The notes under the pieces were generated by a model. The model searched no databases and was not told the origin of the DNA. It saw only the letters and a program-made list of their open reading frames with translations. Positions 29,018-34,020 of a stretch of 64,000 bases of DNA are shown one piece after another. The DNA is taken from positions 62,001 to 126,000 of the forward strand of contig JAOTYL010000008.1 in assembly GCA_029861865.1 (NCBI GenBank), in the 5' to 3' direction. A program made the position numbers and the translations under genes. The DNA is from Myxococcales bacterium. Its GTDB lineage: Bacteria > Myxococcota_A > Polyangia > Polyangiales > Houyiibacteriaceae. Each line of letters begins with the position of its first letter. Within the stretch, counting starts at the first letter, position 1.

Positions 29018-30181
29018 GTGAGGGTGATCGGAATCGCGTGCGCTTGCCTAGTGCTCACGGCAAGCGCGTCTGCGCAAGTCGACACGGGCGGGGGAGACCT
29101 TGCCGGGCCCAGTGAAGAGCAGGCGAGCGAGAGCCCATCCGCAAGGGAGATCCCCCGCAACAAGACGACCGCGGAGAGAATCTCGTCCCCAAACCCGACC
29201 ACCGAGGGCGTGCCCTGGAGTTTCCCGGTCTTTTTCGACCAGAGTTTGTCGGTTCGAAGCTTCAACGAAAGTTCGCAATTGTCCTACAGCCCCAACTACA
29301 CGTGGTGGTTCACCATGGCTCCGCGTTGGATGTTCAATCCGCAGCACTCGATCGGAGTAAACACCACGGTCAGCATCGAGTGGACGGATTCGCCGTCCGA
29401 AGAGTTCAACCGCGCTGGCTTCTATAGCCGCGAAGCGCTGTGGGAGGATGTGCGGCTCGACTATTTATACAGTGTCCCCGTGAAGCCGGCAGGCTTCATG
29501 TTCTTCGTCGCCGGAGACTTGCGACTGCCGGCGTCGAAATTCAGTCGGTCGAGGAAGCGCTACGTGTCGCCTGGCATTCGTTTCACCGCCTTACGACCGT
29601 TCAGCGTGCTGCAAGGCATGCAGCTCGGGCTGACCACCGCGTTTTGGGGTTGGTTCTCCGGTTCGAACGTCGTCCTCGCGCCAAGCGATGTCACTCCGTG
29701 CCGCATCGCGCCCGGCCCCGGCGGAATCGCCACGGTGGACACCTGCGGAGGTGGGACTAGCTCCATCAAGACGACGACTCGGTTGACGGTTTTTTGGACG
29801 TTGGTCCCTGTGGACAGGCTGGCACTCGGGTTGGGCTACAGCGCGCTTTGGGCGCAGGCCAATGACCTCGCGGTGGGATGCGTCGATACTGCGACAGGCC
29901 CGGTCTGCATCGACGACGGAAGCCCCAACCAGCATTGGAGGAGCTTCTCCAACTTCCGCGCCACCATCGGGTATGACATCAAACGCTGGTTGACGATCGC
30001 GCTGAGCTACGACGTATGGGCGCAGCATCCAAACGCAGACGGCGGACGCGAGAACCCTTTCTTCAACGAGAACAGCCGACTGATCATCAGCCTCACCTTT
30101 CGGGCGGACGGCCTCTACGCGAGCGTGCGCGACAAGCGGTTCGAGTCGGCCGCCTCAGGCACAGGGGTCGAGGAGCTCTGA
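29018..30181 (+). CDS. Outer-membrane beta-barrel protein
   Basis: 387 residues from the GTG at 29018, which gives a signal peptide (MRVIGIACACLVLTASASAQ). A Pro/Ser/Glu-rich linker is followed by many amphipathic strands with Trp/Tyr belts (YTWWFTMAPRWMF, WLTIALSYDVWAQ) and a typical last strand ending in Phe-rich residues. No transport or enzyme motif was found. The frame is open further upstream but lacks secretion features. Its 3' end overlaps the convergent Hsp70-like gene by 27 bases. Confidence 0.7.
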   Translation: MRVIGIACACLVLTASASAQVDTGGGDLAGPSEEQASESPSAREIPRNKTTAERISSPNPTTEGVPWSFPVFFDQSLSVRSFNESSQLSYSPNYTWWFTMAPRWMFNPQHSIGVNTTVSIEWTDSPSEEFNRAGFYSREALWEDVRLDYLYSVPVKPAGFMFFVAGDLRLPASKFSRSRKRYVSPGIRFTALRPFSVLQGMQLGLTTAFWGWFSGSNVVLAPSDVTPCRIAPGPGGIATVDTCGGGTSSIKTTTRLTVFWTLVPVDRLALGLGYSALWAQANDLAVGCVDTATGPVCIDDGSPNQHWRSFSNFRATIGYDIKRWLTIALSYDVWAQHPNADGGRENPFFNENSRLIISLTFRADGLYASVRDKRFESAASGTGVEEL

Positions 30182-31348
30182 GACCGCGGGACGGGCCGCA
30201 GCGAGGCTCGCACCCATGCTGACCACACCCAACGGATCCAAGTCAAAACGCGGGCGCTTGCCGAAATAAGACTCGATATACCCGCGAAGGCCGGGCAAGA
30301 GCGTGCTGCCTCCGGCGAGGAACACCGCTTCGATCTCACGCGCCTTCACACTGGCTTCCGCGAGCACTTCATCGCAGATGACGAACGTTCGACGCACTAG
30401 GTCCAAGGTGAGTTGCTGGACTTCGTCGCGCGAGATCGGAATCACCCCACAACTCTCTGGGGCCGCCGGGTCGACGCTCGCAATCGCGATCGCGGCCTCT
30501 TCGGATTCGGTAAGCTCGCATTTGGCCAGCTCGCATGCATTCACCAGGCGGTCGAATGTCACCGCGTCGTTGGTTAGATCCCAAGAGTCGCGTGCGAGAG
30601 TGCGGTCGGCGACATAGATCGCAATCGTTCTGTCGACATCATCGCCGCCGAGGTAGGGATCACCGCCATGCCCGACGACCCTGAATGGATACCGACTGCA
30701 GTCGAGCACTGCCGCGTCGAAGGTGCCGCCTCCAAGGTCATAGACAAAGGCGTATTTCAGGCTGCTTCGGTTGAGGTAGGCGAGCGCCGTCGCGATCGGC
30801 TCTTCGACGACTCGAACGGTGGCGAACTCGGCGCGTGCGACCGCCTGCGACGTCGCATCACGACGCTCCTTGTCGAAGCCCACCGGAGCCGTGACGACGG
30901 CATGCACGTCCCGCACCGGACAATGCGTCAGCTCGCAGAGGCGACCGACGACCTCGCCGCCGATGTCCACGGGGCTCACCAACCCGGCTCGCGTGCGAAA
31001 GATGACCCTACCGTCAGGGGTTTCCAGCAGATCGTAGGGATAGTGCTCGCGAAACAAGCTGGTATACGACGAATGCCAACGAGCGCCGATGATGCGCTTT
31101 GCTGAAAGGATGGTGTTTTTCGGGTCCATCGCTCGGCGCCGGCGGGCTGATTTCCCAACGAGAATGGAGCCGTTCGGTGGGAAGGCCACCGCGGAGGGCA
31201 TTAGAAACCCATTCCCTTCGATACGAAGGGATTCGAAGTTCCGGGCGATCACGGTGTTGGTGGTACCGAGATCGATTCCGACTGTCTGCTTCCTGCGGGC
31301 CGGCATCGAGCGTCGAGGCTGGGGTGTGGTTAAGTTTTCAAGGTCCAT
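30155..31348 (-). CDS. Hsp70-like ATPase without substrate-binding domain
   Basis: 397 residues, only the nucleotide-binding half of DnaK. Visible are VGIDLGTTNTVIA (phosphate 1), VYDLGGGTFDAAVLD (phosphate 2) and AVFLAGGSTLLPGLRGY (adenosine). Family DnaK runs past 600 residues with a beta-sandwich and lid, absent here, so it may be a regulatory or cytoskeleton-like actin-fold ATPase rather than a full chaperone. ATG 31348 is preferred; ATG 31306 is an alternative nearer the core. No dnaJ or grpE lies nearby. Confidence 0.85.
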   Translation of the reverse strand: MDLENLTTPQPRRSMPARRKQTVGIDLGTTNTVIARNFESLRIEGNGFLMPSAVAFPPNGSILVGKSARRRRAMDPKNTILSAKRIIGARWHSSYTSLFREHYPYDLLETPDGRVIFRTRAGLVSPVDIGGEVVGRLCELTHCPVRDVHAVVTAPVGFDKERRDATSQAVARAEFATVRVVEEPIATALAYLNRSSLKYAFVYDLGGGTFDAAVLDCSRYPFRVVGHGGDPYLGGDDVDRTIAIYVADRTLARDSWDLTNDAVTFDRLVNACELAKCELTESEEAAIAIASVDPAAPESCGVIPISRDEVQQLTLDLVRRTFVICDEVLAEASVKAREIEAVFLAGGSTLLPGLRGYIESYFGKRPRFDLDPLGVVSMGASLAAARPAVSELLDPCA

Positions 31349-31441
31349 GGGGGTTTGGCCTCTGCGAATAAGCAGGCTACGTGATTCGGACGCCCATCGC
31401 CACACCGATCGGCTGGACCGAGCTGGGCTCCTGTCCTAAAG

Positions 31442-31472: not shown

Positions 31473-32528
31473 ATGCCCGCCGAGTTTCACAAACTTCAAA
31501 TATCTGGAATTGTTCAGGAAACGCACGATACGCGCTCTTACATCCTCGATGTCCCAAAAACCCTGCGAGAGGAGTTCCGCTATCGTGCCGGGCAATTCCT
31601 GACCTTCGAGATTCCATGGAAGGGCATGTTGCTTCGTCGTTGTTACTCGCTTTCGAGTGCGCCGGAGACCGATCCGAGGCCCAAGGTGACCGTCAAACGG
31701 GTCGACGATGGCCGCGTTTCGAACTGGTTCAATGATGAGCTCGAGGTCGGCGATACGATCGCCGTTCAGCCTCCCGAAGGCAGGTTCGTGCTGCGCACCG
31801 ACGAGGGCGATCATGGGGTCGTCCTGTTCGGCGCCGGGAGCGGTGTGACGCCGGTCATCGCAATCCTGAAGTCTGCGCTCCGGAGCACAGAGCGCGATGT
31901 CAAGCTCGTCTACGCCAACCGCGACGAAGATTCGATCATCTTCAAGGATGAGCTCGACCTGTGGCTCGCGGAGTTTCCAGAGCGCCTAGAAGTCGTTCAC
32001 CACCTCGATCGCGAGAGCGGGTTTATGAGCGTTGCGGACATCCAGGAGCATTTGCGCGGCTGGGAGGAGGCGGAGTTCTTTGTATGCGGCCCGACCGAAT
32101 ACATGGACATCGTCGAAGAGGCTTTCAAAGTTGCGGGGATCGACCCAGCACAAACGAAGTTCGAACGCTTCAACTCACTTCCTGATCCTGATCGTCGAGA
32201 TGAATCGGCCGACATCGTTCCCGAACAAGCCGACGACGAGATTCCTGAATCGTTCACGATCGTGCTCGAGGGCGAGGCTCACACGGTGCCCTACGAGAAG
32301 GGCGCCACATTGCTCGACGCTGCCGTGAAGGCCGGTCACAAACCGCCATCTTCATGTGAGGATGGTTATTGTGGATGCTGCATGGCGCTGTTGAAGAGCG
32401 GTAGTGTCAGCATGGCCTGTCACGACGCGCTCGAGCCGAGCGACATCGAGCGGGGCTGGATCCTAGCCTGCCAATCACGCCCCTCCAGCCATGAACAACT
32501 CGAAATAGACTTCGACGCCCAATACTAG
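31473..32528 (+). CDS. Ferredoxin-type reductase, KshB/PaaE-like
   Basis: 351 residues. The FAD domain has RRCYSLSSAPE (isoalloxazine/pyrophosphate contact), the NAD domain has VVLFGAGSGVTPVIAIL and FFVCGPTEYM, and the C-terminal plant-type [2Fe-2S] domain has SSCEDGYCGCCMALL with a distal LAC. This is the layout of 3-ketosteroid 9-alpha-hydroxylase reductase and similar Rieske-oxygenase reductases. The convergent neighbour is a Rieske oxygenase, so this is very likely its electron donor, and the shared operator supports that. Confidence 0.9.
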   Translation: MPAEFHKLQISGIVQETHDTRSYILDVPKTLREEFRYRAGQFLTFEIPWKGMLLRRCYSLSSAPETDPRPKVTVKRVDDGRVSNWFNDELEVGDTIAVQPPEGRFVLRTDEGDHGVVLFGAGSGVTPVIAILKSALRSTERDVKLVYANRDEDSIIFKDELDLWLAEFPERLEVVHHLDRESGFMSVADIQEHLRGWEEAEFFVCGPTEYMDIVEEAFKVAGIDPAQTKFERFNSLPDPDRRDESADIVPEQADDEIPESFTIVLEGEAHTVPYEKGATLLDAAVKAGHKPPSSCEDGYCGCCMALLKSGSVSMACHDALEPSDIERGWILACQSRPSSHEQLEIDFDAQY

Positions 32529-32593
32529 AAAAGGGGACTGTCCCCTTTTCCTTTTTCGCATTAACCCCTCGAAAAAGGGGACTGTCCCCTTTT
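32529..32593. repeat. Two palindromic GGGGAC-T-GTCCCC repeats
   Basis: Two copies (32529-32549 and 32573-32593), each with arms AAAAGGGGAC and GTCCCCTTTT around a central T. Hairpins flanked by A and T runs can terminate transcription in both directions, which suits the convergent genes here. The sequence resembles dispersed REP-like palindromes of other bacteria. The second copy lies inside the end of the NTF2-like gene. Confidence 0.8.
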
Positions 32594-33049
32594 CTTGCGG
32601 GTGCGTTTGTTGCGGTGATCGGGGTCGTGCTTTTTGAGGGCGGCCTCGTACTCCTGGAACTGCTGGACGCCGAGCTTTTCGGCCCAGTAGTCCTCTTCCA
32701 TCGACCATTGATCGTTGCCGGCATACTGCAGCACTGTGACCCCCGGGAAGTCCATGTGGCCCTGCCCACTCGGGTGGTCGCGGCGATTGATCATGCGAAA
32801 AACCAACCGGCCACTCGGGTCGATCTCGTGCCAGTCATAGACGCCGTAGATCTCACCATACTTCTCCATCAACGGGACGATCCAGCTTCGAACCGCCTCG
32901 CGCCCATGCATCGTACCGAGCACGCGCTCGTAATACACGACGTCTTCGGTGAAGAGGTCCGCCCACGCGTTCCAGTCCTCGCAAATCATCCCGATGTGCC
33001 AAAAACGGCGGAACGCTGTCTCGATCTCTTCGATGTCGAACGTCGCCAT
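32561..33049 (-). CDS. NTF2/SnoaL-like protein
   Basis: 162 residues with the cone-shaped NTF2 fold pattern: FRRFWHIGMICEDWNAWADL, VYYERVLGTMHGREAVRSWI and WSMEEDYWAEKLG. The family includes ketosteroid isomerase, polyketide cyclases and the beta subunits of ring-hydroxylating dioxygenases. It follows the Rieske oxygenase (start overlaps stop, TAATG), so it may be a subunit or process its product. The last residues (KKRGQSPFSRG) come from the palindromic repeat, apparently a captured extension. Confidence 0.8.
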   Translation of the reverse strand: MATFDIEEIETAFRRFWHIGMICEDWNAWADLFTEDVVYYERVLGTMHGREAVRSWIVPLMEKYGEIYGVYDWHEIDPSGRLVFRMINRRDHPSGQGHMDFPGVTVLQYAGNDQWSMEEDYWAEKLGVQQFQEYEAALKKHDPDHRNKRTRKKRGQSPFSRG

Positions 33050-34020
33050 TACTCGGCGGCCCGTTGCTCCTCAGGCCACGAATAGAACTGAGTGCACCAG
33101 CGTCGGAAGATGCCGATCGGCCCGTCTCCATCACAGAGCAGCGGCTTCTCGTGTTGGATCTTGTTCTCCCAAATGGGGATGTCCTGCTCGAGCTGGCGCT
33201 TGAGCTCAGCGATGAACGCCGCGCCCACACCGCGGGTCGTATCGGCACCGCCTACCTTCCTGATGCTGAAGTTGAAGCGAACATGCACGTTGTCTTCATC
33301 GATCGGCGTCGTGGTCGCAACGTTGAGCGTCTCGACGAGGCCTTTGAAGCGCACGAGGGAGAGCCCGAAACCATAGTTGAGGCTCTCTATCGAACCGTCG
33401 ATCGGTCCTCTTGGCGTCGACATGCCGGCGCCGGAGTAGACGCGCATCTTATGCCCCTCGATCGTAGCTTCCGACTGAGGCATGTTGGTGCAACCGTGCA
33501 AGTAATGAAAGTGTGCCGAGTCGACCGCGTTCTCGGCCATCTCCTGGTTGCGGGTTCGAATCTTCCACTCACGAAGCTCGAAGTCGGTCCATTCGTCAGT
33601 GTCGAGCTCGGGGATCTCGTCTGGAATGTCCCACTGCGGGGGCTCGCCCTCGGCGTGATGCCAACACATCACCAAACCCGCGAGCTCTTTGATGTGCCAA
33701 GGCTCGACACGCGCTTTGCGTGGAACGTGCTTGGCGTATGGGACTGCGCTGCACCTCCCGTCGGTGCCGAACTGCCAAGCGTGGAAGGGACACTCGATGT
33801 TGTCACCTTTGACCTTGCCACCGTGCCCGAGGTGGGCGCCCAGGTGCGGGCAAAACGCGTCCAAAACGGAGAGCTCACCGGCCTCGGAACGCCAAATGAC
33901 CAGGTCTTTGCCGAAATAGTGGAGAGGTTTGACCTCGCCAGGCTCGACCTCGTCGGCGGTGGCGATCTGAAACCAGCCATTGGGGATCGGAGGAGTGAAA
34001 TAGCGATCGCGGTCCTGCAT
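33049..34020 (-). CDS. Rieske non-heme iron oxygenase, KshA-like
   Basis: 323 residues. The Rieske cluster motif is CPHLGAHLGHGG with CPFHAWQF (CxH-CxxH). The mononuclear iron site is ENAVDSAHFHYLHG (D-x3-H-x4-H). The layout is that of single-component alpha oxygenases such as 3-ketosteroid 9-alpha-hydroxylase (KshA) and cholesterol desaturases. It hydroxylates or desaturates a hydrophobic ring compound; steroid is a guess from family and operator. The promoter carries a KstR-type palindrome, and the NTF2-like partner is coupled downstream. Confidence 0.9.
   Translation of the reverse strand: MQDRDRYFTPPIPNGWFQIATADEVEPGEVKPLHYFGKDLVIWRSEAGELSVLDAFCPHLGAHLGHGGKVKGDNIECPFHAWQFGTDGRCSAVPYAKHVPRKARVEPWHIKELAGLVMCWHHAEGEPPQWDIPDEIPELDTDEWTDFELREWKIRTRNQEMAENAVDSAHFHYLHGCTNMPQSEATIEGHKMRVYSGAGMSTPRGPIDGSIESLNYGFGLSLVRFKGLVETLNVATTTPIDEDNVHVRFNFSIRKVGGADTTRGVGAAFIAELKRQLEQDIPIWENKIQHEKPLLCDGDGPIGIFRRWCTQFYSWPEEQRAAE

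Follow-up and report, generated by a model that had tools for sequence, protein, structure and literature searches.

A gene for a SnoaL/NTF2-fold protein overlaps by one base the 3′ end of a gene for a KshA-family Rieske oxygenase in the window (the whole stretch of 64,000 nucleotides analysed here), which belongs to the 4.2 Mb genome of an uncultured myxobacterium. We give a probability of about 0.5 to the reading in which the small protein is a separate acid-base enzyme that accompanies a KSH-type (3-ketosteroid 9α-hydroxylase-like) module, shares a steroid-type intermediate with it and is tied to it by a coupled overlap, and in which it forms no structural part of the oxygenase. The pair as a whole is most likely a variant on the known KSH system.

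Organization of the gene pair

Both genes lie on the minus strand, where the original prediction had placed them, the oxygenase gene (323 amino acids; Rieske and KshA_C domains) at positions 33049–34020 and the NTF2-like gene (162 amino acids; SnoaL_2 and SnoaL_4) at 32561–33049, and Pfam matches both domain families. That the NTF2 gene starts within the oxygenase stop can be read directly in the DNA: at the junction, GAGTAATGGCG, the TAA stop of the oxygenase and the ATG of the NTF2 gene have one base in common in a TAATG at 33047–33051 (minus strand). Such a TA(A/G)TG overlap of one nucleotide is present at 14 of the 16 linked loci of the family, and at the other two (L016 and L017) the sequence allows a TGA stop within a four-base GTGA or ATGA overlap. 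The overlap is a candidate site of translational coupling, and we infer that it couples translation of the SnoaL protein to that of the oxygenase.

The oxygenase

The oxygenase is matched by KshA_C (PF19298) at 7.4e-40 (137.7 bits, with a cut-off of 23.3) and by Rieske at 1.2e-22. The solved structures closest to it are the oxygenases of 3-ketosteroid 9α-hydroxylases (KshA chains; top match 4qdf, 3.6e-52), with which its residues 13–316 align. The two Cys and two His of the Rieske center (C57, H59, C77, and H80) are invariant in 16 aligned orthologues, as are H170, H175, and D280, which align with the KshA chains and which we take to be the iron-binding two His and one Asp of the KshA_C catalytic domain. 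It is under tighter constraint than the NTF2 gene, with dN 0.017 and dS 0.444 in comparison with locus L003. We assign it to the KshA family by sequence, with C9 hydroxylation of a 3-ketosteroid as its putative reaction. The original prediction's description of KshA-type oxygenases as homotrimers agrees with the available text of PMC4064121, in which KshA is an α3 trimer served by KshB.

In a tree of 72 KshA-like rows the window oxygenase falls in a 22-row clade with good support, 16 members of which have the NTF2 gene after them, while the NTF2-neighboured oxygenases of two genomes outside the family, G316 and G177, form a separate well supported pair. The NTF2-neighbour label requires 5 changes on this tree as against 16.2 in shuffles, a difference to which near-copies contribute, as they ease clustering.

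The SnoaL/NTF2-like protein

The small protein is matched by SnoaL_2 (3.1e-8) and SnoaL_4 (1.6e-5), both over cut-off, and SnoaL_2 matches all 24 rows of the NTF2 alignment; L109 was left out of the wide alignment, A3, because its stretch contained a stop. The ORF is real and not a chance one, since it is conserved in 17 genomes (mean column identity 82% over the 17 aligned copies) and evolves under purifying selection (dN 0.066, dS 0.540, and dN/dS about 0.12 in comparison with L003). A C-terminal tail is kept in 14 of the 17 copies and is absent from those of the window, L002, and L016.

Comparison with other NTF2-fold proteins gives weak matches in two directions. Ring_hydroxyl_B (PF00866), the family of dioxygenase β subunits, matches 0 of the 24 alignment members at E 0.01 and is not among the Pfam matches of the window protein up to E 1. 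The best single-sequence PDB match is the β subunit of biphenyl dioxygenase, at E 0.24. With the wide alignment hhalign gives probabilities of 1.7–36% for β subunits and 34% for ketosteroid isomerase (KSI), and with the family-only alignment (A1) it gives 2.5–13.6% and 0.3%, respectively, all of them low; these profiles do not tell a β subunit from KSI. The predicted structures of the NTF2 protein (17 rows; pLDDT 58.9) and of the oxygenase (16 rows; pLDDT 40.4) are too poor for claims at the level of residues. In a fold comparison of the NTF2 model KSI chains lead, with Z up to 7.2, which is within the range that the tool calls common and comes from a library in which KSI chains are very numerous; given the low confidence of the model, we regard this fold match as weak. 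Dioxygenase β subunits are absent from the best 50 rows of the same low-confidence comparison.

The catalytic residues of Pseudomonas putida KSI are Tyr16, Asp40, and Asp103. In three MAFFT alignments with that enzyme Tyr16 corresponds to Phe16 of the NTF2 protein and Asp103 to Thr105, while Asp40 is placed opposite Glu41 by one of the three and opposite Arg42 by the other two and by hhalign; the alignment with KSI is weak, at an hhalign probability of 34%. At the position of Glu41, which is at or beside that of the KSI base, each of the 24 rows has an acidic residue, Asp or Glu. TIGR02096, a ketosteroid-isomerase-related model, gives the protein 16.8 bits, with a cut-off of 97.1.

Distribution within the family

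The NTF2 gene was found in 17 of the 57 related genomes searched (its own included), one copy in each, and these are 15 of the 19 genomes of the host genus and 2 of the 14 others of the family; incomplete MAGs and short contigs are frequent in the material, so that, where genes appear to be absent, the counts are lower bounds. At 16 of these 17 loci it lies directly 3′ of the orthologous oxygenase gene, and the linkage spans three genera of the family. The host genome has seven KshA_C matches including that of the window, one of them partial and weak, and no SnoaL_2 or SnoaL_4 gene lies within 30 kb of the six others. It also has eleven SnoaL_2 places and one further SnoaL_4 match that overlaps one of them, and the window's is the only one of all these with a KshA_C gene less than 30 kb away.

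The exception to the linkage is genome G004, where the contig with the NTF2 gene has no oxygenase. An oxygenase 77–79% identical to that of the window is present on another contig, adjoining a hydrolase that resembles, by reading of the sequences, the HsaD-like protein of the host (see below). At the NTF2 locus itself (L010, contig C440, bases 1436–1501) the first 11 codons of the oxygenase gene are joined, in frame, to its last codons, and the remnant of 21 residues ends in a TAG that overlaps the GTG start of the NTF2 gene by one base. As read from this one MAG contig, this is an in-frame internal deletion of the oxygenase that has kept its start, its stop, and the overlap. The survival of the NTF2 gene suggests that its protein is useful in its own right, and the survival of the overlap suggests that it serves as a way for the NTF2 gene to be translated.

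Distribution outside the family

Among the matches listed for 377 genomes of the phylum, 10 further genomes have close relatives of the NTF2 protein (E <1e-40). In the stretches fetched, which are of 3–18 kb, 2 of these 10 have a KshA-like gene (L118 in G316 and L122 in G177) and no such gene was seen for the other 8, while KshA_C occurs somewhere in the genome in 8 of the 10, as against at least 154 of the 377 phylum genomes overall. Genes of lipid and CoA type, named by reading of the sequences, are among the neighbours of these relatives. The L122 stretch contains a second KshA-like gene, which is closer to the window's oxygenase, as well as crotonase and CoA-transferase genes and a gene for a TetR regulator, for which KstR scores best among the models (99 of 280 bits, under the cut-off). 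We also note that at L118 (contig C164, 241–10171) genes like those for OleA, OleC, and OleD of hydrocarbon biosynthesis, all under the cut-offs of the Ole models, lie a few kilobases from the NTF2 and KshA-like pair.

Two more pairs were found by eye, from comparing lists of best matches. The first, in G347 (L156), is a SnoaL-like gene beside a KshA-like oxygenase gene and convergent with it. In G220 (L157, contig C483, 4241–6211) a SnoaL_4 gene overlaps the stop of a KshA-like oxygenase gene by four bases and is followed by a second SnoaL gene, of the A3 family; this is a second kind of oxygenase–SnoaL layout. Neither pair was drawn from a sample of 49 KshA_C places, the best 49 outside the family by E-value and not a random sample, 2 of which have a SnoaL-like neighbour in a search that could show only relatives of A3 or of the L156 and L157 proteins. 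Together with the scattered pairs, this indicates that oxygenase–SnoaL pairing recurs outside the family but is uncommon, and as a general rule for KshA_C genes pairing is rejected. The original prediction had made the distribution of the NTF2 gene among homologous loci a matter of consequence; the association is seen at 16 of 17 loci within the family and at 2 of the 49 places sampled outside it.

A scan of genome contigs for NTF2 relatives returned 16 loci, all 67–85% identical. Plasmids yielded 5 actinobacterial relatives of 32–37% identity, which sit in clusters of P450, CoA-ligase, and acyl-CoA-dehydrogenase genes, and one scan of viral contigs yielded no NTF2 relative.

The reductase and the convergent intergenic region

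The gene that adjoins the pair, in convergent orientation, encodes a KshB-like reductase of 351 amino acids (31473–32528, plus strand) with FAD_binding_6, NAD_binding_1, and C-terminal Fer2 domains (Pfam). Its best NCBIfam model is PaaE, at 229.8 bits and under the cut-off of 420.8, and it is a putative KshB, a label taken from its domain architecture only. A tblastn match to this reductase is found near the NTF2 gene at all 17 family loci, with another ORF between them at L016, and at none of the oxygenase loci without an NTF2 gene that were listed in the same comparison; L118 and L122, the pairs outside the family, have no such match. On the far side of the window's reductase, an Hsp70-like protein of 416 amino acids is encoded at 30155–31405 (minus strand); of the 599 positions of the HSP70 model it covers only 2–373. 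At L064, L066, and L067 too, an ORF like it adjoins the reductase gene.

Between the convergent genes there are two copies, at 32529–32549 and 32573–32593, of a near-perfect palindrome of 21 bases, AAAAGGGGACTGTCCCCTTTT, which reads on both strands. A search for it gave these 2 places, each on both strands, with 0.00 expected in shuffles. The second copy is within the 3′ end of the NTF2 ORF, in its reading frame, at the site of the missing tail. The palindromes are possibly a bidirectional terminator or a REP-like element, and may have taken the place of the C-terminal tail of the NTF2 protein.

Candidate steroid degradation genes of the host

Near other KshA-like genes of the host are genes for a 4-hydroxy-2-oxovalerate aldolase and an acetaldehyde dehydrogenase, both over their NCBIfam cut-offs; these are of the HsaF/HsaG type, which is common to many aromatic pathways and is not specific to steroids. 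The host also has an HsaA-like protein (420 of 450 bits, under the NCBIfam cut-off), a 2-oxopent-4-enoate hydratase of the HsaE type (385.7 of 408.8 bits), a protein whose best match is the HsaD model, under its cut-off, and a cholesterol-oxidase-like protein (best match at 580 of 850 bits). These hsa-like and cholesterol-oxidase-like genes are near other KshA-like genes, at L050 and L049 (contigs C8 and C22), and the window locus is outside the hsa-like cluster. A flavoprotein encoded beside the cholesterol-oxidase-like gene is over the cut-off of a general FAD-binding model and far under those of the 3-ketosteroid-Δ1-dehydrogenase models. In genome G045, relatives of the oxygenase that have no NTF2 neighbour lie among hsa-like and kstD-like genes (names by reading of sequences). 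Taken together, the hsa-like genes, the cholesterol-oxidase-like gene, and the kstD-like context in G045 make it likely, as far as gene content can tell, that the host degrades steroids through a pathway of the 9,10-seco type, and the genes of the host suggest steroid breakdown in its group of uncultured myxobacteria.

Role of the NTF2-like protein

A functional link between the two proteins, which the original prediction had supposed, is supported by the linkage within the family and by the SnoaL-like neighbours in four further genomes. The same prediction offered two forms for it, with the NTF2 protein either as an accessory subunit or as an isomerase of the product; the subunit is disfavoured by what we find, and an isomerase-like enzyme is plausible, although the KSI residues are not conserved. 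As a β-like subunit the NTF2 protein would bind, stabilise, or tune the KshA-like oxygenase, as in the α3β3 dioxygenases. It belongs to the same fold superfamily as the β subunits, the overlap and the family linkage are what one would look for in such a pair, both of the true β genes found in the phylum likewise overlap their α gene, and the PDB match and the hhalign comparison made with the family-only alignment lean toward β. On the other side, a subunit is disfavoured by the Pfam result, by the host itself, which has no Ring_hydroxyl_B match at 1e-10 and six other KshA_C genes without a SnoaL neighbour, by the α3 composition of KshA enzymes in the available text of PMC4064121, by the close NTF2 relatives that have no adjoining oxygenase, and by G004, which retains the NTF2 gene after losing the adjoining oxygenase in frame. 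The gene distribution and the apparent deletion in G004 favour a separate protein, and we consider a β-like subunit unlikely. It is somewhat easier to imagine, though still doubtful, that the NTF2 gene is a co-transcribed neighbour whose SnoaL-like product has an unrelated task on another lipid or CoA-linked substrate, as the lipid- and CoA-type surroundings of its relatives outside the family and on actinobacterial plasmids, and the 8 of 10 stretches with no KshA-like gene, would suggest. The linkage across three genera, the purifying selection, and the pairing in two well-separated oxygenase clades (with the help that near-copies give to that count) argue against such independence.

A true ketosteroid Δ4–Δ5 isomerase that readies the substrate of the oxygenase would fit the SnoaL_2 domain, the weak fold match led by KSI, and the conserved acidic residue at or beside the KSI base position. 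With Tyr16 and Asp103 replaced, Asp40 on Arg42 in 3 of 4 alignments, and the TIGR02096 score far under its cut-off, we hold this improbable, and a canonical KSI is rejected since the catalytic residues are not conserved. For the same reason a dehydratase is as possible as an isomerase. SnoaL-type cyclases do aldol chemistry, and the protein might conceivably catalyse a retro-aldol-like opening of the C9–C10 bond with aromatisation of ring A, paired with KshA, which we regard as the least probable of the roles considered here. This opening of the 9-hydroxy product is described as spontaneous in the part of PMC4064121 available to us.

The reading that we prefer, a separate acid-base enzyme, can be put as follows. 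The locus would be a KSH-type module of a probably steroid-degrading myxobacterium, in which the SnoaL protein, most likely a dehydratase or a double-bond isomerase, would act on the steroid-type intermediate of the oxygenase either before or after hydroxylation. The overlapping start would hold the two proteins in step, and the KshB-like reductase encoded on the opposite strand would serve the module. The substrates and reactions named here for the oxygenase and the SnoaL protein are putative.

Relation to known systems

The locus resembles KshAB in the KshA_C and Rieske domains of its oxygenase and in the adjoining gene for a reductase with FAD, NAD, and plant-type Fe-S domains, and it differs in that the oxygenase gene is followed by an overlapping gene of the SnoaL family. 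From the ring-hydroxylating dioxygenases with Ring_hydroxyl_B subunits, with which it shares an NTF2-fold gene that overlaps an oxygenase gene, it differs in having an oxygenase of 323 amino acids and KshA type; at 1e-10, Ring_hydroxyl_B occurs in 2 of the 140 phylum genomes searched, each time beside an α subunit of 428–434 amino acids. With KSI the small protein has in common the SnoaL/NTF2 fold, as the weak match of its model indicates, whereas two of the three catalytic positions are missing and the third is ambiguous.

Steroid dehydratases of the NTF2/SnoaL superfamily are known, namely SteC (a 12β-dehydratase) and BaiE and Hsh2 (7α-dehydratases), according to the available portions of PMC13101464 and PMC12175502, so a dehydratase is a fair guess for the window protein. 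They resemble it as small steroid-ring enzymes of the SnoaL/NTF2 superfamily, compared at the level of the superfamily only, and differ in that those portions describe no coupling with a KshA gene. The steroid cluster of Novosphingobium tardaugens holds an NTF2-family gene, EGO55_13755, whose role is stated as unknown in the accessible text of PMC6895838; going by that description only, it is like the window gene in being an NTF2-family gene in a steroid-degradation setting and unlike it in that some 50 kb separate the cluster from the proposed kshA. A literature search gave no paper with both KshA and SnoaL, and no such pairing in the titles or abstract openings of the papers listed.

Should the SnoaL protein be an ordinary dehydratase or isomerase, this would be a matter of routine annotation. 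If our preferred reading is true, an uncultured group of myxobacteria would have a dedicated partner enzyme for the KSH step of steroid breakdown, and as yet unassigned NTF2-family genes in steroid clusters, such as the one described for N. tardaugens in the available part of PMC6895838, would gain a candidate role. The locus also lets one ask whether ring opening after 9α-hydroxylation is enzyme-assisted.
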